Below, one piece after another: positions 1-43,754 of a stretch of 43,754 nt of DNA. Made by a program: the position numbers and the translations under genes. Location of the stretch: positions 1 to 43,754 of the IMG/VR virus record IMGVR_UViG_3300037245_001420; one strand, written 5' to 3'. Source of the stretch: a virus. The notes under the pieces are model-generated. The model saw nothing but the letters and a program-made list of their open reading frames with translations. It was not told the DNA's origin and searched no databases. Position 1 is the stretch's first letter. The number at the start of each line of letters is the position of its first letter.

Positions 1-73
1 GAATGCTACGAACTATCAGATAACTAAGAAAGTGGGACGGATTATTTCCCAAATATTGGGCATAATTGGTTTT
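1..73. repeat. Direct terminal repeat, left copy
   Basis: These 73 bases are identical to positions 43682-43754, which suggests that the sequence is circular or circularly permuted. The same sequence also occurs inside the window (42283-42355, and with changes at 914-986) as part of the array repeat. The overlap could therefore reflect a true circle or an assembly break inside a multi-copy repeat. Confidence 0.9.
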
Positions 74-131
74 GGTTGTGTGTTAGCCTGGTGAGGGTTT
101 TTGCGGGAAGCGGTGAGCAATTATGCCCAAC
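55..131 (+). repeat. Array H hairpin (type 1)
   Basis: The left box ATTGGGC (55-61) and right box GCCCAAC (125-131) flank a stem in which GGGCATAATTG pairs with CAATTATGCCC. The loop contains the motif TTTTTGCGGGAAGCGGTGAG, shared with other H copies. The outermost base does not pair (A opposite C), as if the two flanking cassettes had been brought together independently. Confidence 0.75.
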
Positions 132-281: not shown

Positions 282-569
282 ATGAAAAGAGATGAAATTA
301 AAAGACAAGTAAAATCTTCTATTCCTATTGCAGTTACAAGTAGGACCGGGAAATTAATGTTCCCTTATAGAAATTTAAAAACTCACAAATTAATTATAGA
401 AAATATAGTTGATTTAATTGAAAATATTTTATCAAACGAACGTGAAGGGTTAGGAAAACATGAGTGTGAAAGTAAATTCTGCATGTGTCCTATCCCTAAC
501 TTAAGTATGATAGATACAAATAACGAAGGATATTGTATTAAATGTGATAAGCCTTGGAAAGCAGAATGA
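282..569 (+). CDS. Cassette protein with zinc-ribbon-like cysteines
   Basis: A 95-residue protein of unknown function. The C-terminal third has two paired cysteine motifs (CESKFCMC and CIKC), which suggests a small zinc-binding fold. The N-terminal half is basic and amphipathic, with no membrane segment or signal peptide. The start codon follows an A-rich leader. It lies inside an H-type array unit and is followed by the boundary heptamer TCCTAAT, so it is annotated as array cargo. No family was recognised; an antitoxin-like or regulatory role would be speculation. Confidence 0.7.
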   Translation: MKRDEIKRQVKSSIPIAVTSRTGKLMFPYRNLKTHKLIIENIVDLIENILSNEREGLGKHECESKFCMCPIPNLSMIDTNNEGYCIKCDKPWKAE

Positions 570-603
570 TTTCACACGCCCGTTCGAAACGGCATGTTTT
601 CCT

Positions 604-970
604 AATATTTGGGAAATATGGGACGGAATTTGAGGGATCCGAAATCATCCTTAATTGAAATATAGAATTTAATATTAACTAATATATAACAAAATTATGA
701 AAACAATTATCGCAATTTGCGCAATTATAATAGCAACAGCTATTAATCAAGACTATGTAGTTAGTAAATCGACGCCTATATGTATAGTAGGCGTTGTCGC
801 TTTTCTGTGGGATATGGTAGATTATTATATAAACTCAGATAAATAATTTTATGAACTATTCGCACGTCTCTCAAATTCTGTTCTATGATTTCTTAGTTGG
901 GAATACGTTGCAGGAATGCTACGAAGTTTCAGATAACTAAGAAAGTGGGACGGATTATTTCCCAAATATT
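604..970 (+). repeat. Array X unit around the gene at 697-846
   Basis: The outer arm AATATTTGGGAAAT (604-617) pairs perfectly with ATTTCCCAAATATT (957-970) across the gene. Inside it, GAATTTGAG (626-634) pairs with CTCAAATTC (870-878), and AAATCAT (642-648) pairs with ATGATTT (885-891). The last two helices cross, giving a pseudoknot. TTCTTAGTT and AACTAAGAA form a local hairpin in the right half. Confidence 0.75.
697..846 (+). CDS. Small membrane protein, array cargo
   Basis: A 49-residue hydrophobic protein with two probable membrane segments (about residues 3-16 and 27-40) and a short polar C-terminus ending in NSDK. The start is the ATG in the leader AAAATTATG, a leader sequence also present before the cassette gene at 43474. 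It is enclosed by a complete X stem and is the last cassette before the recombinase. Function unknown. Its size is compatible with a holin-like or toxin-like peptide, but nothing in the sequence decides this. Confidence 0.6.
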   Translation: MKTIIAICAIIIATAINQDYVVSKSTPICIVGVVAFLWDMVDYYINSDK

Positions 971-1045
971 GGGCATAATTGGTTTTGGTTGTGTGTTAGC
1001 CTGTTGAGGGTTTTTGCGTTGAGGCAGCGAGCAATTATGCCCAAC
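968..1045 (+). repeat. Array H hairpin adjoining the recombinase
   Basis: ATTGGGC (968-974) and GCCCAAC (1039-1045) bound a stem of GGGCATAATTG with CAATTATGCCC. Its loop differs from the copy at 55-131 (TTTTTGCGTTGAGGCAGCGAG). It is the terminal site of the array, immediately upstream of the recombinase promoter. Confidence 0.75.
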
Positions 1046-1064
1046 AATTATATATAAATAAGTA

Positions 1065-1095
1065 TTTGGTAATTGTTTAATTTTTATTATCTTAG
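1065..1095 (+). promoter_or_regulatory. Promoter of the recombinase gene
   Basis: TTTG at 1065-1068, a 19-base spacer, then TATCTTAG at 1088-1095, close to the Bacteroidota consensus TTTG-N19/20-TAnnTTTG. Transcription would start almost at the ATG at 1100, giving a leaderless or near-leaderless message. This argues against a start upstream of 1100. Confidence 0.55.
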
Positions 1096-1099
1096 CACT

Positions 1100-1900
1100 A
1101 TGAAAAACGGCAAAATTATAAAGATTTGTGAACAAAAGTTTATATATCTTAATTATTCTTTAAGAACAAAAGAAATATACACACATTATATTAAACAATT
1201 TATTAACACTTTGAATAAACAAATAATACACTGTAATTATAATGATTTTCAAGATTATTTGGACAATTATAATTTTAGTTCGGTATCTCAGCAAAATCAA
1301 GTTATAAATTCAATTAGGTTTTTATATAAATATGGACTTAACAGAAAGTATAAAAAGGTATCTTTCATGCGACCAATAAATGAAAAGCATTTACCTAGAA
1401 TTATTGATAAAGAATTTTTATTGTCTTCTATAGACAATATAAAAAATATAAAACACAAGTGTTTAATTGGCATATCTTATTCTATAGGTTTGCGAGTGTC
1501 TGATGTAATTAACTTAAAAATAGAAGACATAGACTCAAAAAGAATGATTGTTAATATAAGACAATCTAAAGGAAGAAAAGACAGGATACTTCCTTTAAGT
1601 GATAAAATATTAGAATTACTTAAAGAATATTACAAGAAATATAGACCTAAAATATATTTATTTAATGGACAAAACTCATTAAAATACTCTGCTACTAGTT
1701 GTAATAAAATAGTTAAGAAATATACGAGTAACGAATATCATTTTCATTTATTAAGGCACGCCTGCTTTACTCACCTATTAGAATCTGGAACCGATTTAAG
1801 GATTATACAAAAAATGGCAGGACATAAATCAATTAAAACGACCGAAATTTATACACACGTAAGTACTAATTTATTACAAACCGTAAATTTACCAATATGA
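1100..1900 (+). CDS. Tyrosine recombinase (XerC/XerD-like) at the end of the cassette array
   Basis: A 266-residue site-specific recombinase. The N-terminal part (about 1-95) is a SAM-like core-binding domain, and the C-terminal part is the catalytic domain. Visible active-site residues are R132 (GLRVSD), K157 (SKGRK), H216 and R219 (HLLRH), H242 (GHKS) and the nucleophile Y251 (IYTH). Length and motifs match Xer and phage integrases. The extra segment that integron integrases carry between the catalytic boxes is absent, and those enzymes are usually 320-340 residues. The gene follows the terminal H site of the array and overlaps the GIY-YIG gene by ATGA, so the two are translationally coupled. 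It may move cassettes, integrate the phage, or do both. Confidence 0.9.
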   Translation: MKNGKIIKICEQKFIYLNYSLRTKEIYTHYIKQFINTLNKQIIHCNYNDFQDYLDNYNFSSVSQQNQVINSIRFLYKYGLNRKYKKVSFMRPINEKHLPRIIDKEFLLSSIDNIKNIKHKCLIGISYSIGLRVSDVINLKIEDIDSKRMIVNIRQSKGRKDRILPLSDKILELLKEYYKKYRPKIYLFNGQNSLKYSATSCNKIVKKYTSNEYHFHLLRHACFTHLLESGTDLRIIQKMAGHKSIKTTEIYTHVSTNLLQTVNLPI

Positions 1901-2289
1901 AATTCAATATAGACGAATCAATTAAACATGAATCCGGTATTTATATTATTAAAAATACATTAGATTTTAAATGTTACATCGGAAGCACGAAGGATTTTTA
2001 TCAAAGACATAAAGATCACATATCTAAATTAAATAACAAAAGACATACTAATCCTAGATTGCAAAACTTTGTTAATAAATACGGTATCGAAATACTTAGT
2101 TTTAATATTTTGTGCTTTTGTAGTATAAAATTATTGAGATATAATGAAAAGTTACTAATAGATGAATTAAGCCCAACATTTAATATTAAGCCAATTGAAA
2201 TAGATGATTTGGATTTGTACGATAAGAATTATGAAGCAGAAAAAGCAAGAGAAATAGTTAATGAAATATTGGGCGTATTAAAGATTTAA
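1897..2289 (+). CDS. GIY-YIG endonuclease
   Basis: A 130-residue single-domain nuclease. GIY is at residues 14-16, YIG at 27-29 and the catalytic arginine at R37 (FYQRHKDH), followed by the NPRLQNFVNKYG helix typical of the family and a glutamate in NEKLLIDE. It lacks a recognisable DNA-binding extension, so targeting must come from the domain itself or a partner. The start overlaps the recombinase stop (ATGA). Such enzymes act as homing or DNA-repair nucleases. Its coupling to a recombinase beside a hairpin array suggests a role in array DNA cleavage or spread, which is inference. Confidence 0.85.
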   Translation: MKFNIDESIKHESGIYIIKNTLDFKCYIGSTKDFYQRHKDHISKLNNKRHTNPRLQNFVNKYGIEILSFNILCFCSIKLLRYNEKLLIDELSPTFNIKPIEIDDLDLYDKNYEAEKAREIVNEILGVLKI

Positions 2290-39909: not shown

Positions 39910-40063
39910 ATAAACTGATTTAACTAAAATAAAATTGTAACTTGTATAAGTATATTAAATCAGTAAAATAGTGAAGCGGATGAAGTCTAACATTTTGGAG
40001 AATAAGGGAAGGTTTTAAGATACCTTCCCGGAAAAAGTTAATTATTAACGAACAATAAATATT
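39910..40063 (+). other. Non-coding head of the cassette array
   Basis: CTGATTTA and TAAATCAG form a long-loop hairpin (about 39917-39964). GAAGCGGATGAAGTCTAAC then resembles the end of an H hairpin and carries the first boundary heptamer, GTCTAAC (39985-39991). GGGAAGG (40006-40012) pairs with CCTTCCC (40023-40029) locally, an alternative to the long-range pairing of 40011-40024 across the next gene. Confidence 0.5.
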
Positions 40064-40416
40064 ATGAAATTATTTAAAGTGATGACGCAAGGAATGAAGT
40101 CTAATTGTACTGGTGTCGCTTATGGAACTGCTTACGTAGTGGCTAGCGATCCAACTGAAGCTTATAAGAAATTAAGAAGATTCTTAGATAATGAAGATTT
40201 AGGCTTTAGATCAGAAAGAGAGCTAGACACAATCGAAGTGATTGCAGATGAAGAGCAGTATAACGATGTAGGATTTATATTATACACCTAATAATATTTA
40301 TCTTTACTCTGGTATCTTAAAACTTGCCCTTGATTCATAGTTATACACTGTGAGTTTAGGGAAAAACTTCAATTGTTGTACAAGTTTTAAGGTGTGATGG
40401 AATATTCTCGGCTGTT
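39989..40416 (+). repeat. Array X unit around the gene at 40064
   Basis: Outer arms AACA..GAGAATA (39989-40004) and TATTCTC..TGTT (40403-40416) pair with a central mismatch. An inner arm, GTTTTAAGATACC (40012-40024), pairs perfectly with GGTATCTTAAAAC (40311-40323) across the gene. The right half has its own hairpin, AAAACTTG with CAAGTTTT (about 40319-40387). This is the most divergent unit. Confidence 0.55.
40064..40291 (+). CDS. Cassette gene, conserved small phage-type protein
   Basis: 75 residues beginning MKLFKVMTQGMKSNC. The middle GTAYVVASDPTEAYKKLRRFLD is a pattern I associate with small phage proteins. No catalytic motif. It is the first cargo gene of the array and has perfect inverted arms on both sides. 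Confidence 0.65.
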   Translation: MKLFKVMTQGMKSNCTGVAYGTAYVVASDPTEAYKKLRRFLDNEDLGFRSERELDTIEVIADEEQYNDVGFILYT

Positions 40417-40695
40417 ATAGCACAATGGCTTTTGGTTTTTGCGCTTTGGAGCGAGGGGAATTTTAAAATTTATTTCAATTATGGAAAAAGATTTAACAGA
40501 AGCTAACGGAATTGATCTACTTGATGAATTCGAAAAACTTATTCAAGAACAAGCGAGAAAACCTAAAACATTTGATAAAATTAAATACAAAAAGGAGAGA
40601 TTAAATATTGTCTACGAAGAAGTTTTTAGAAGAATGTTTAATTATGTTAACTAATTTTTAAATTAGGGAAGGACAGTGAGTCATTGTGCTATAAT
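40414..40695 (+). repeat. Array H-type unit carrying the gene at 40481
   Basis: TTATAGCACAATG (40415-40427) pairs perfectly with CATTGTGCTATAA (40682-40694) across the gene. Boundary boxes are GTTATAG (40414-40420) and CTATAAT (40689-40695). The left part contains GGTTTTTGCGCTTTGGAGCG, which matches the loop motif of H hairpins, so this is an H hairpin with a gene in its loop. Confidence 0.6.
40481..40654 (+). CDS. Cassette gene, small helical protein
   Basis: 57 residues from the ATG after CAATT; an in-frame start 42 bases earlier would lie inside the H-loop motif and is not used. Acidic and helical (GIDLLDEFEKLIQEQARK). Function unknown. Confidence 0.55.
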   Translation: MEKDLTEANGIDLLDEFEKLIQEQARKPKTFDKIKYKKERLNIVYEEVFRRMFNYVN

Positions 40696-41040
40696 ATTTC
40701 AAGTTATATGTGACGGAAATTTTTAACACTTTTTATATGGGATGTAAAGACAAATCAATATTTAGACAGAACATAACCTTCAATGAAGGTATGAAGATAA
40801 TTAATTCAATACCGAGAGGGAAGGATATTTTCGTGTTTAGAATAAGCCTAACGTCTAGTAGTTGTAGGTACGGCAAAGAAAAGTATATACTTTCAATAGC
40901 GTATAGAAAATGTGGGAATAAAAAGTGTTAGGAATTTATGGCTTATGATAATCTAGTTGTGAGTAGTCATCTTTGGTTAAGAGATGATCTTAATCGAAGT
41001 ATCATAAGCCTGTGCGGAAGGACATATAACTTGAAATATT
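40693..41040 (+). repeat. Array X unit around the gene at 40737
   Basis: AATATTTCAAGTTATATGT (40693-40711) pairs with ACATATAACTTGAAATATT (41022-41040) without mismatch. A second pair of arms, 18 bases each (40717-40734 and 40920-40937), is complementary with two G-U pairs and covers the stretch before the ATG and the stop codon of the gene. GGCTTATGATA and TATCATAAGCC form a local stem in the right half. Confidence 0.75.
40737..40931 (+). CDS. Cassette gene, small basic protein
   Basis: 64 residues from ATG 40737 (MGCKDKSIFRQN). A GTG at 40710 is in frame, but it lies in the repeat arm. Beta-rich with several serines and cysteines (SLTSSSCRYGKEK). Both the ribosome entry region and the stop codon lie in a long complementary stem, so its translation may depend on that stem opening. 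Function unknown. Confidence 0.5.
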   Translation: MGCKDKSIFRQNITFNEGMKIINSIPRGKDIFVFRISLTSSSCRYGKEKYILSIAYRKCGNKKC

Positions 41041-41120
41041 GTGAGTAATGATCCTTGCCTTTTTGAGCGTTTGAAGGGAAGGGTTTTGTGCGGAATGCCG
41101 AGCTGTCAATTAATCACAAC
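41038..41120 (+). repeat. Array H hairpin (type 2)
   Basis: Boxes ATTGTGA (41038-41044) and TCACAAC (41114-41120). The loop has TTTTTGAGCGTTTGAAGGG and TTTTGTGCGGAATGCCGAGC, almost identical to the hairpin at 42823-42904, but the left arm (GTAATGATC) pairs poorly with CAATTAA on the right. This may be a hybrid of two different half-sites. Confidence 0.65.
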
Positions 41121-41438
41121 ACCAAGGAAAATATGGGACGGTTTAATTTAAAACATTAAGATTATGAAAAAACCAAAGGAAATTAGAATTAGTATAATTA
41201 GCTTACAGCTAAAAGAGAATGAAATTTTAATTAAAATAAATGAAACAAATCTTACTTATACAGAAAAGATTAAATATTACACACAGCTTTCAAGTATATC
41301 TATTAAAATTTCAGAATTAGAAAGAGTTTTGAATTGAAATGTACTATGATTTTTTAGTTATGAGTAGAAATATTAGGAATATAAACTTGCAGATACTGAA
41401 GGACGTCTCCTGCGGGACGGCATATTTTCCTTGGTGTT
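41118..41438 (+). repeat. Array X unit around the gene at 41164
   Basis: AACACCAAGGAAAATATG (41118-41135) pairs with CATATTTTCCTTGGTGTT (41421-41438), 18 perfect pairs. TTTAATTTAAAAC before the gene pairs with GTTTTGAATTGAAA at its end with one bulge. The AAATCATAG helix is missing here, although CTATGATTT is present on the right. Confidence 0.75.
41164..41337 (+). CDS. Cassette gene, coiled-coil peptide
   Basis: 57 residues, helical, isoleucine- and leucine-rich heptads (ISIISLQLKENEILI, then SSISIKISELERVL), suggesting self-association. The stop codon lies within the right inner arm. No family recognised. Confidence 0.55.
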   Translation: MKKPKEIRISIISLQLKENEILIKINETNLTYTEKIKYYTQLSSISIKISELERVLN

Positions 41439-41597
41439 ATGCGTAAAAATATTTGGAATGGAAACTAAACTTGAAGATTGTAGATTTTGGACTTGCTATA
41501 ACTGTCCTTTTATAGATATGTGTTACAAATATCAAGAGGGTAGGCGAGGATGGAACGACCGCAGGGAGTTAGCGAAGCGGGAATTTTTACGCCTAAT
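41436..41597 (+). repeat. Array H hairpin holding a gene start
   Basis: Boxes GTTATGC (41436-41442) and GCCTAAT (41591-41597). GCGTAAAAAT (41441-41450) pairs with ATTTTTACGC (41583-41592). Instead of a short loop, the interior carries most of the gene at 41458, showing that H positions can also hold coding DNA. Confidence 0.65.
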
Positions 41598-41649
41598 ATT
41601 TGGGAAATATGGGACGGAATTTGAGGGTGTAAAATCATCAACACTATGA
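41458..41649 (+). CDS. Cassette gene in an H hairpin, cysteine-rich protein
   Basis: 63 residues from METKLEDCRFW. CRFWTCYNCPFIDMC suggests a zinc- or cluster-binding site in the first 22 residues. The later part (RRELAKREFLRLIFGKYG) reads through the H right arm and X left arm, so its C-terminus is made of repeat sequence and may be non-essential. It could have been longer before insertion into the array. Confidence 0.5.
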   Translation: METKLEDCRFWTCYNCPFIDMCYKYQEGRRGWNDRRELAKREFLRLIFGKYGTEFEGVKSSTL

Positions 41650-41681
41650 AAGTAAAGAGTTTATTATTAAATATTTTTTAA
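41646..41681 (+). CDS. Possible leader peptide
   Basis: An 11-codon frame (MKVKSLLLNIF) whose stop codon touches a strong Shine-Dalgarno sequence, AGGAGG at 41681-41686. Such an arrangement could couple its translation to the next gene. Expression is unproven. Confidence 0.25.
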   Translation: MKVKSLLLNIF

Positions 41682-41693
41682 GGAGGGAATTTT

Positions 41694-41870
41694 ATGAAAT
41701 TTAAAAAAGGAGACCAGGCAATAATAACTGATGATAGTAATTTACGTCATCTTAGAATAATGGATAAAGTTACAATCAAGATAGTTGATCCTTTATCTAC
41801 AATCTTAACATATTACGTAGAAGATATTAATGGTATAGGACAATGGGTATCTGAAAATCAGATAGCATAA
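41694..41870 (+). CDS. Cassette gene, small SH3-like protein
   Basis: 58 residues. FKKGDQAIITDD at the start and YYVEDINGIGQWVSENQI at the end are typical of small SH3-like barrels found in phage and mobile-element proteins. It is preceded by AGGAGG seven bases before the ATG, a signal that is rare in Bacteroidota and in the rest of this window, so the gene may come from another kind of host. Function unknown. Confidence 0.6.
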   Translation: MKFKKGDQAIITDDSNLRHLRIMDKVTIKIVDPLSTILTYYVEDINGIGQWVSENQIA

Positions 41871-41883
41871 AAATTTAGAAACT

Positions 41884-42159
41884 ATGAAAAAAAAGTACGA
41901 CATGAAACCAATAGTTGATTTAATGGATAACTCTATTAATAAACTGAAAAAATTAGTACCAAAAGAACATCAATTAATTTGCAGCGATTGTGGACAAATC
42001 ATAGACATGAGAGATTTAAGCCAAGTTTTCGCACATGAGCCTTGTGATGGCATTCAGAAAAATTACAATGATGTTGAACAAATACCATACTCATCTAGTC
42101 AGAAAATAGGAGAACCTATAATTTGGACAAAAGACAAGAGAGCTATACACTTAAATTAA
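41884..42159 (+). CDS. Cassette gene with zinc-ribbon-like motif
   Basis: 91 residues. LICSDCGQIIDMRDLSQVFAHEPC gives CxxC plus a later histidine and cysteine, a plausible zinc site (residues 48-69). The N-terminus is helical and basic. It is second in a two-gene cassette, 13 bases after the SH3-like gene. No function assigned. Confidence 0.6.
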   Translation: MKKKYDMKPIVDLMDNSINKLKKLVPKEHQLICSDCGQIIDMRDLSQVFAHEPCDGIQKNYNDVEQIPYSSSQKIGEPIIWTKDKRAIHLN

Positions 42160-42505
42160 ACAGTTTAGAATAAACTGAAAAAGCGTAGGCAAAAAAATAT
42201 TTAATATTAAGATAAACCAATACTATGAAAAAAGACTCTCAAATTCTGTTCTATGATTTCTTAGTTGTGCATATGTTGCAGGAATGCTACGAACTATCAG
42301 ATAACTAAGAAAGTGGGACGGATTATTTCCCAAATATTGGGCATAATTGGTTTTGGTTGTGTGTTAGCCTGGTGAGGGTTTTTGCGGGAAGCGGTGAGCA
42401 ATTATGCCTAATGTTTCAGTAAATATGGGACGGGTTTTTAAGGGTAGAATCATAGTGATGATTATATATAATAAATTAAATGTTTAATTAAAAAGTAATA
42501 AAATT
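42160..42505 (+). other. Non-coding array junction
   Basis: 346 bases without a credible gene. A short frame beginning MKKDSQILFYDF at 42224 runs into the repeat and is probably an extended form of the repeat frame noted elsewhere. The rest consists of the right half of the X unit that ends at 42338, the H hairpin at 42336-42412 and the left half of the next unit. Confidence 0.6.
42336..42412 (+). repeat. Array H hairpin (type 1)
   Basis: Boxes ATTGGGC (42336-42342) and GCCTAAT (42406-42412). The loop is identical to the copy at 55-131. Only the last bases of the right box differ (TAAT here, CAAC there), matching the cassette that follows. Confidence 0.75.
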
Positions 42506-42825
42506 ATGACAGTTAAAGAATTGAAAGAGAAACTGAATAAATTTCCAGACAATACAGATGTATTTGTAGATGAAAGATACACTGAATTTACTTATGGAAT
42601 CGTAAACTCAGTACACATGATGGAAATTGATTTAGTTGAAGAACCAGGAGGTGATTCACTTGCTCAGCAAGATGTAGTTATAATTAGTGAAGAATAATTT
42701 TATGGGTTCAAGGCTTCTGCCCTTAAAAACATGTCCTATGATTTATTAGTTGTGAGTCGTTGACAGTTATGGCAGGAACTGTCAGACACGTACAGAGGTG
42801 CGGAAGCCTTATTTACTGAAACATT
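42410..42825 (+). repeat. Array X unit around the gene at 42506
   Basis: AATGTTTCAGTAAATA (42410-42425) pairs with TATTTACTGAAACATT (42810-42825). GTTTTTAAGGG (42434-42444) pairs with CCCTTAAAAAC (42720-42730), and AATCATAG (42448-42455) with CTATGATT (42736-42743). GACAGTT and AACTGTC form a local hairpin in the right half. Confidence 0.8.
42506..42697 (+). CDS. Cassette gene, small conserved phage-type protein
   Basis: 63 residues beginning MTVKELKEKLNKFPDNTDVFV, a start shared by many small phage proteins of unknown role. The middle is beta-rich and the end acidic. The ATG follows AATAAAATT. Enclosed by fully matched arms. Confidence 0.65.
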   Translation: MTVKELKEKLNKFPDNTDVFVDERYTEFTYGIVNSVHMMEIDLVEEPGGDSLAQQDVVIISEE

Positions 42826-42904
42826 GTGATTAATTGTGTTGCCTTTTTGAGCGTTTGAAGGGAAGGGTTTTGTGCGGAATGCCGAGCTGTCAATTAATCA
42901 CAAC
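42823..42904 (+). repeat. Array H hairpin (type 2)
   Basis: Boxes ATTGTGA (42823-42829) and TCACAAC (42898-42904); TGTGATTAATTG pairs with CAATTAATCACA. The loop matches that of 41038-41120 closely. Confidence 0.75.
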
Positions 42905-43300
42905 GCTTCAGGAAATATGGGATGGCTTTTTAAGGGCAAATCATAGCCCTATCTATTATATATAAATTTAATATTAATCACTAAAGAAAGAAAATTATGA
43001 AAACTAAATTTGTTGAAGAAAAGACAAAAAAGAGTTTAGCTGTCAAGGACGGCATAATTCCTGTTGTAAAATGGGATAAAGTTACTATTAACGAGATAAA
43101 TTATAGTGTAATATCATGGCGTTTCGATATTGATATGGAATTATATTATGTTTATTTAGAAGTCTAATAATTTTATGGAGATCATTGGGAAGGCCCTTGA
43201 AAAGCTTTCCTATGATTTACTTGTTAGGTTTAGTTGACTTAGGTAGGTAGTCCGTTTCGGATAGCTGAGATTGTGCGTAAGCCTTATTTTCTGAAGCGTT
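42902..43300 (+). repeat. Array X unit around the gene at 42997
   Basis: AACGCTTCAGGAAATA (42902-42917) pairs with TATTTTCTGAAGCGTT (43285-43300) with one G-T pair. GCTTTTTAAGGGC (42925-42937) pairs with GCCCTTGAAAAGC (43193-43205) with one G-T pair. AAATCATAG (42938-42946) pairs with CTATGATTT (43210-43218). Confidence 0.8.
42997..43167 (+). CDS. Cassette gene, small unknown protein
   Basis: 56 residues, basic N-terminus (MKTKFVEEKTKKS) and a beta-rich end (INYSVISWRFDIDMELYYVY). No motif. The ATG follows a purine-rich leader (AAAGAAAGAAAATTATG). The flanks on both sides, about 300 bases, hold only array repeats. Confidence 0.55.
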   Translation: MKTKFVEEKTKKSLAVKDGIIPVVKWDKVTINEINYSVISWRFDIDMELYYVYLEV

Positions 43301-43382
43301 AAGGTTCAATTGAACTGGTTTTTGTGGGCTGTTGTAGGGTGGATATTTTGTGTGGAAGCCGTGCGGTCAATTGAACCTTAAT
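43298..43382 (+). repeat. Array H hairpin (type 3)
   Basis: Boxes GTTAAGG (43298-43304) and CCTTAAT (43376-43382). AAGGTTCAATTGA pairs with TCAATTGAACCTT. The loop is related to but distinct from types 1 and 2 (TTTTGTGTGGAAGCCGTGCGG). Confidence 0.75.
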
Positions 43383-43738
43383 ATTTGGGAAATATGGGAC
43401 GGAATTTGAGGGTACTCAAAATCATAGTCTCACAAAGAAATGAATTTAATATTAACTAATATATAATAAAATTATGACACTTGAAATTAGAGAGTATGAA
43501 TATGATGATTCAGATGCAATGAAAAGATTTGTATCTTGCTTGCGTAAAGATAACTTAATAAATATACACTATTGTTCCAATATAGATAAATATTTTGTGT
43601 ATTACTGGGTATAATTTTATGAACTATACACACGACTCTCAAATTCTGTTCTATGATTTCTTAGTTGTGCATATGTTGCAGGAATGCTACGAACTATCAG
43701 ATAACTAAGAAAGTGGGACGGATTATTTCCCAAATATT
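43380..43738 (+). repeat. Array X unit around the gene at 43474
   Basis: AATATTTGGGAAAT (43380-43393) pairs with ATTTCCCAAATATT (43725-43738). GAATTTGAG (43402-43410) pairs with CTCAAATTC (43638-43646). AAATCATAG (43419-43427) pairs with CTATGATTT (43651-43659). Its repeat sequences are almost identical to those of the unit at 604-970. Confidence 0.8.
43474..43614 (+). CDS. Cassette gene, very small protein
   Basis: 46 residues, acidic start (MTLEIREYEYDDSDAM), two cysteines, an aromatic end (KYFVYYWV). The leader AACTAATATATAATAAAATT before its ATG is nearly the same as that of the gene at 697, so the two cassettes share a recent origin for their flanks, though the genes differ. Function unknown. 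Confidence 0.5.
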   Translation: MTLEIREYEYDDSDAMKRFVSCLRKDNLINIHYCSNIDKYFVYYWV

Positions 43739-43754
43739 GGGCATAATTGGTTTT
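43682..43754. repeat. Direct terminal repeat, right copy
   Basis: Identical to positions 1-73. It covers the right arm of an ORF-spanning stem and the beginning of an inter-gene hairpin that continues at position 74. Array features in this region should be read across the junction. Confidence 0.9.

Follow-up and report, generated by a model that had tools for sequence, protein, structure and literature searches.

A phage tyrosine recombinase with an attI-like site and an array of hairpin-separated small genes: evidence for an integron-like cassette system

We describe phage sequences that very probably (roughly 85%, in our estimate) encode an integron-like cassette system, in which a tyrosine recombinase would join an attI-like site with cassette sites of paired arms at AAC|, the array would grow at the recombinase end, and a GIY-YIG nuclease gene following the recombinase would be a separate element. 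The starting point is a virus contig of 43,754 nt (IMG/VR record IMGVR_UViG_3300037245_001420), which was analysed over its whole length and is called the window here. Across the sequences compared, the conserved unit is the recombinase, the attI-like site just upstream of it and a hairpin-separated cassette array. Integrons are known as gene-capture platforms of bacteria and, recently, of archaea; the hairpin array on the recombinase side, together with whole-gene differences at one site in cultured relatives, suggests that viruses run their own version of an integron.

The window phage is of the flavobacterial type, and the two ends of its record are identical over 73 nt (43682-43754 equals 1-73). 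The record is therefore most likely a closed circle of ∼43,681 bp (or is terminally redundant), and the array at 39.9-43.68 kb continues through this overlap into positions 1-1045, directly upstream of the recombinase. When joined, the array contains 24 long inverted-repeat pairs, whereas 40 dinucleotide shuffles average 1.05 (maximum 3) and other regions of the phage hold 0-3 over the same length. The arms are of two types that alternate along the array: R-type arms (e.g. ATTGGGCATAATTG..CAATTATGCCCAAC) mostly close a hairpin of 75-85 nt, and L-type arms (e.g. AATATTTGGGAAATA..) mostly flank a small ORF, with an ORF inside R-type arms at two places. The features are given below in order towards and past the recombinase; array modules were found by inverted-repeat analysis unless another basis is given.

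40010..40325, + strand: outermost inverted-arm module with ORF 40064-40291; arms 40010-40024 / 40311-40325
40413..40696, + strand: R-type module with a small ORF ending at 40654; arms 40413-40430 / 40679-40696
40691..41042, + strand: L-type module with ORF 40710-40931; arms of 21 nt, 40691-40711 / 41022-41042, the inner 19 nt fully complementary
41041..41122, + strand: R-type hairpin, H2-like, its right part recurring at 42839-42905 (sequence reading)
41115..41441, + strand: L-type module with ORF 41164-41337; arms 41115-41135 / 41421-41441
41434..41597, + strand: R-type module with a gene inside, ATG near 41458 and stop at 41649; arms GTTATGCGTAAAAAT / ATTTTTACGCCTAAT (sequence reading)
41591..42342, + strand: L-type module with ORFs 41694-41870 and 41884-42159; arms 41591-41609 / 42324-42342
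42336..42412, + strand: R-type hairpin H1; arms 42336-42351 / 42397-42412
42410..42825, + strand: L-type module with ORF 42506-42697; arms 42410-42428 / 42807-42825
42822..42905, + strand: R-type hairpin H2; arms 42822-42836 / 42891-42905
42902..43300, + strand: L-type module with ORF 42997-43167; arms 42902-42917 / 43285-43300
43299..43381, + strand: R-type hairpin H3; arms 43299-43315 / 43365-43381
43380..43738, + strand: L-type module with a small ORF starting near 43474; arms 43380-43394 / 43724-43738 (the latter equals 43-57)
56..131, + strand: H1 copy spanning the contig ends, 43736-43754 being equal to 55-73 (inverted repeats and end overlap)
282..569, + strand: cassette ORF of 95 aa, between H1 (56-131) and an H-less junction at ∼570-610 (ORF list)
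601..973, + strand: L-type module around a small ORF near 697-846; arms 601-618 / 956-973
967..1046, + strand: R-type hairpin H1, the copy adjoining attI; arms 967-983 / 1030-1046
1039..1066, + strand: attI-like site GCCCAAC|AATTATATATAAATAAGTATT (comparison of the regions upstream of recombinases; break at TAAC| in relatives)
1100..1900, + strand: tyrosine recombinase, Xer/IntI-like fold without the IntI additional domain, the proposed cassette recombinase (PF00589, invariant residues, tree, model)
1897..2289, + strand: GIY-YIG endonuclease, a probable homing-type passenger (PF01541/TIGR01453; directly 3′ of the recombinase only here and in locus L001)

The three copies of H1 share a common left flank and diverge immediately past GCCYAA, and the last of them abuts AATTATATATAAATAAGTATT, the block preceding the recombinase. 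Forward and inverse core sites alternate along the window array, with a similar spacing at both cores (7-8 nt, read by eye). The ORF at 41458-41649 reads through the right-hand recombination site of its R-type module, so that exchange there would alter its C-terminus, and the 95-aa cassette ORF has no match in Pfam or PHROG. The window sites are laid out differently from those of most relatives, in that window genes lie mostly within L-type arms and those of most relatives in the reverse compartment. Apart from scattered weak matches, a blastn comparison of the window array with the other loci found shared sequence only right before the recombinase, in L001 and L039. By analogy with its relatives, the window's own array is probably still mobile.

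The recombinase ORF (266 aa) matches the Pfam profiles PF00589 (E=3e-37) and PF13495 (E=6e-10). A preliminary description of this DNA had claimed that all catalytic residues are present, and R132, K157/K160, H216, R219, H242 and Y251 are indeed there and invariant across 27 relatives. It was also right that the extra segment of integron integrases is missing: the distance from the K motif to HxxRH is 53 aa, compared with 100 aa in IntI1 and 66 aa in one XerD, and from this short stretch we conclude that the IntI additional domain is absent. Alignment to IntI4 (2a3v) leaves a gap at the additional-domain segment. Among NCBIfam models the best score is that of XerA (156 bits, below its cut-off of 220 bits), and the integron-integrase model scores 140 bits, below its 265-bit cut-off. 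An AlphaFold model (mean pLDDT 86, pTM 0.64) has XerA and IntI4 as its best Foldseek matches. In a tree of 54 recombinases that holds few IntI rows and has moderate support at its deep forks, 24 phage-family rows group together (moderate support, 85/89), the recombinases of the phages Freya and Ingeline branch elsewhere, and a group with 100/100 support unites the three IntI rows and contains no phage recombinases.

A scan of viral sequences gave 78 loci, about 75-76 of which encode close relatives of this recombinase, nearly all with 45-76% identity. In most loci with enough upstream sequence, the right half of the attI-like site recurs before the recombinase as TAAC|TATNATATATAAACAAG or in a closely similar form, and where TATAAC|TATNATATATAAACAAG directly precedes the recombinase, sequences differ beyond TAAC. 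Loci L017/L021, L020 and L025 agree completely over the 600 nt that follow attI and show no relation upstream of it, with the break at TAAC|. As in integrons, a conserved attI-like block lies beside the recombinase, and it is here that the breaks between contigs, and between the cultured isolates described below, fall.

Upstream of this block, L035 and L013 carry plain arrays in which GTGCTAAC - hairpin - GTTAGCAC, gene, GTGCTAAC - hairpin repeats. When 54 sites were aligned, chosen by a common loop TCGTTTTAATG and a stem of at least 6 bp (a choice that inflates pairing), 10 of the 12 pairs in the 12-bp stem had changed on both sides, with a covariation of 0.436 compared with 0.110 after shuffling. 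Since these sites had been picked by loop and stem, a second count was made from geometry alone, using one geometry only and counting near-duplicate loci and identical sites once. It gave, upstream of the recombinase, 172 hairpins on the recombinase's own strand, 39 when the sequence was reversed and 17 on the opposite strand; the corresponding downstream counts are 37, 34 and 21. At least two hairpins lie upstream in 37 of the 45 loci having at least 2 kb of upstream sequence. The half-sites of the relatives are asymmetric, with 15-17 nt from AAC to the loop and 13-14 nt from the loop to GTT. In 129 cassettes, some of them false because they were delimited by geometry matches, the start arm agrees with its own end arm at a mean of 3.83 of 6 variable positions, compared with 2.35 (sd 0.10) when shuffled, and this pairing spans whole cassettes of about 500 nt. 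Start arms that pair with their own end arms, as in integron cassettes, are likewise found in Freya and in the L arms of the window. The relatives also keep the fold while the sequence varies, as attC-type sites do; the window arms pair too, in another layout. In both the stem and the own-cassette arm pairing, the hairpins resemble folded sites. Near attI (L006, L014, L028, L029), short R-type hairpins without a gene are likewise closed by the loop TCGTTTTAATG, so one loop serves both hairpin types. Directly before some hairpins (L014, L028 and others) there is a TATATTTG-like sequence, which we take to resemble the Bacteroidota -7 promoter element.

The earlier claim that the recombinase goes with the adjoining array also stands. 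The window array runs to 1045, and a covariance model finds sites in 41 of the 50 recombinase records. Conversely, a recombinase match is present in 16 of the 50 records retrieved with the commonest hairpin and absent from the other 34, many of which are fragments. Cassette genes read towards the recombinase and not away from it as in integrons: among relatives, in 115 of the 121 cassettes with an ORF of at least 40 aa, the longest ORF is on the recombinase strand. Pfam matches are few among 99 cassette ORFs and are mainly to DNA methyltransferases. The large-terminase family phrog_2, which matches bacterial control genomes too, was matched in 19 of the 50 recombinase records. A bacterial origin of the system was considered and rejected: among the 17 best bacterial loci inspected, the attI-like block and sites occur only in L080 and L081, both from metagenome-assembled genomes, and searching 11 bacterial genomes with R1 turned up three weak matches, which score 36-41 bits where good phage sites reach 60-84 bits. 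The L080 and L081 contigs are binned as Methylophaga and Cytophagales and are possibly misbinned phage contigs or prophages. Some large phage contigs carry a further cluster of sites far from the recombinase array, at about 245 kb in G068 (∼48 kb away from the recombinase gene) and at about 171 kb in G003 (∼16 kb away), and no second recombinase of the same family was reported at these distant clusters.

Cultured phages allow the array to be compared between nearly identical genomes. The closest cultured matches to the window's terminase are those of the Polaribacter phage Freya and of Danklef, with a similar gene order. Since the Freya recombinase is 35% identical to that of the window and lies on a separate branch, we infer from the one phage to the other. 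The Freya records represent complete circular genomes, distinguished from one another by blocks inserted at the site, and the array ranges from 886 to 5,828 nt among seven isolates. Outside the array, the 43,113-bp core of Freya_1, 2, 6, 8 and 10 differs by 0-4 nt; this comparison covers the five whole genomes, and Freya_5 and Freya_9 entered with their array ends and recombinase gene start only. In all 21 pairs that the seven isolates form, the agreement breaks at ..AAC. The Freya counterpart of the attI-like site is ..AAC|ACCCCTATAACAACAATAAGTA, and in every pair except Freya_8 and Freya_10 the sequences agree again from the attI half ACCCCTATAACAACAATAAGTA onwards. In that pair the sole large difference is an internal block of ∼902 nt between two cassette junctions, absent from Freya_8. 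The arrays are largely nested (Freya_1 in 2, 2 in 5, and 5 in 6 or 9; Freya_9 in 10), and gain and loss are indistinguishable from such a nested series. Freya cassettes follow the same own-arm pairing rule. The paper that describes Freya reads the integrase as a sign of temperate potential, and its main text mentions neither integron nor cassette (PMC8776804). Danklef isolates vary upstream of an integrase annotated as a 132-nt fragment (L313 4861-4992; also Danklef_2, 3 and 5), and they differ by whole genes, such as a DNA methylase that is in Danklef_1 and 5 and absent from Danklef_2 and 3.

The nuclease gene behaves differently from the conserved unit. The ORF at 1897-2289 (130 aa) matches PF01541 (E=3e-9) and overlaps the recombinase ORF by ATGA, just as had been reported. 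Like the GIY-YIG homing endonucleases of phages and group I introns, its product matches TIGR01453, the group I intron endonuclease model, above the cut-off (67 bits against 56) and also matches PHROG homing endonucleases. It differs from them in that no recognised group I intron lies inside or beside the gene, an Rfam scan of the whole window up to E=1 having given no match, and the gene is not kept with the array. The preliminary description had suggested that the nuclease could cleave array sites and so take part in the mechanism, which the comparison of loci does not support: GIY-YIG directly follows the recombinase in 2 of the 49 IMG/VR loci (the window and L001), unrelated genes take that place in the others, and an HNH gene does so in Freya (L305 872-1495). 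Nor do the gene pair and the repeats always occur together, as that description had proposed to check, because sites and recombinase are found without GIY-YIG, and the hairpin-bearing contigs in which no recombinase was found, many of them fragments, carry sites as well. The GIY-YIG gene was therefore rejected as a component of the module and is best read, from its distribution, as a separate homing-type passenger. In Danklef too (L313-L316), an HNH endonuclease, that is, another nuclease family, follows the recombinase in the place of GIY-YIG. Beyond the nuclease gene, the ORF at 2317-2766 weakly matches the C-terminal helix-turn-helix of DnaA (PF08299, E=2e-5), with a score under the gathering threshold.

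These data lead us to propose that the recombinase would recombine the double-stranded attI-like site at 1039-1066 with cassette sites formed by paired arms. A cassette would run from one direct core site to the next and hold one small gene and one hairpin. Because the arms at its two ends are complementary, one strand could fold into a recombination-ready site, like the attC of integrons. Use of folded single strands is suggested by the covariation, the arm pairing, the half-site asymmetry in relatives and the uniform gene strand; that the window recombinase itself catalyses the exchange we infer from its position and its co-occurrence with the sites. Cassettes would enter and leave at the ..AAC| junction beside the recombinase, so the array would grow at the recombinase end. 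The cassette genes face the recombinase, opposite to their direction in classical integrons.

The alternating cores could instead reflect double-stranded dif-type modules, on which the recombinase would act as XerC/XerD do on the C and D modules of Acinetobacter pdif sites, the pairing of arms being incidental. The window does have alternating forward and inverse cores of similar 7-8 nt spacing (by eye), R or L arms inside the modules, and module pairs between direct sites, as in pdif C/D (PMC13141974). However, its arms are specific to each cassette and complementary within it, stems covary, and the half-sites of relatives (15-17 nt versus 13-14 nt) are asymmetric. Inverted sites also predict inversion, and pdif modules occur in both orientations, whereas nearly all cassette ORFs here (115/121) lie on one strand. 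For these reasons we consider a dif-type mechanism unlikely.

An ordinary lysogeny integrase is a still weaker candidate. Phage tyrosine recombinases usually serve lysogeny, and the authors of the Freya study read the integrase in this way (PMC8776804); the conserved block would then be attP or attL, and the variable upstream sequence would be host chromosome or assembly joins. Yet the window closes on itself through its 73-nt overlap with the array inside, complete circular Freya genomes differ by inserted blocks at the site, and the upstream sequence consists of small hairpin-separated cassettes with paired arms. Lysogeny as the whole explanation is thus very improbable, and it may be an additional role beside cassette exchange. 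Hardly any credence is left for hairpins that are structured RNAs or terminators and have no role in recombination: they are strong inverted repeats between co-oriented genes, but isolate breakpoints fall exactly at the sites, arms pair across entire ∼500-nt cassettes, and Rfam gave no match up to E=1.

Returning to the integron-like reading, the new element is a distinct recombinase family that comes with an attI-like site and hairpin cassettes of its own and is found mainly on phage contigs. In the literature covered, to which preprints (bioRxiv) and most subscription journals did not belong, we found no description of this family with its array; with bioRxiv outside that coverage, novelty is not proven. 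The system would explain the gain and loss of small accessory genes in these phages and would show whether the use of folded sites needs the IntI additional domain, and the available Polaribacter phages make it testable now. We regard it as an even call whether this is a virus-specific integron class, that is, a Xer-like lineage apart from IntI that independently gained the ability to recombine hairpins of folded single strands and with which Bacteroidota phages, some of them very large, swap small accessory genes.

Among known systems, the Xer recombinases (archaeal XerA, XerC/XerD and XerH) resemble the window recombinase in fold and length, with XerA giving the best NCBIfam score and XerA and IntI4 the best structural matches. 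They differ in that the window group is separate in the tree, has its own cassette array and scores below the XerA cut-off. The Acinetobacter plasmid dif modules share the core sites that alternate in inverse orientation, the one or other arm type inside modules and the units between direct sites (PMC13141974). In contrast to host XerC and XerD, a single phage-encoded recombinase is present here; the spacing reads by eye as ∼7-8 nt, compared with 6 in dif modules, the arms are cassette-specific and self-complementary, and the gene strand is nearly uniform. Phage integrons have been described with canonical IntI or its sites, including CALINs (Qi et al. 2023, PMC9892861), and the IntI-specific additional domain has been named as defining for IntI (PMC9668308). 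The window recombinase lacks this domain, falls outside the three IntI rows and scores below the integron-integrase cut-off. Further differences from integrons are that cassette genes face the recombinase, that window genes lie mostly in the other compartment, and that the close relatives of the recombinase come mostly from viral contigs. By both additional domain and clade, the recombinase falls outside the IntI family, and for this reason we do not name the sites attC outright. The system nonetheless probably works like an integron: an array of small-gene cassettes adjoins a tyrosine recombinase, an attI-like site lies at the recombinase start, the hairpin sites have GTT/AAC cores and keep structure more than sequence, and the first arm of each cassette is complementary to its last, with insertion proposed to occur beside the recombinase.
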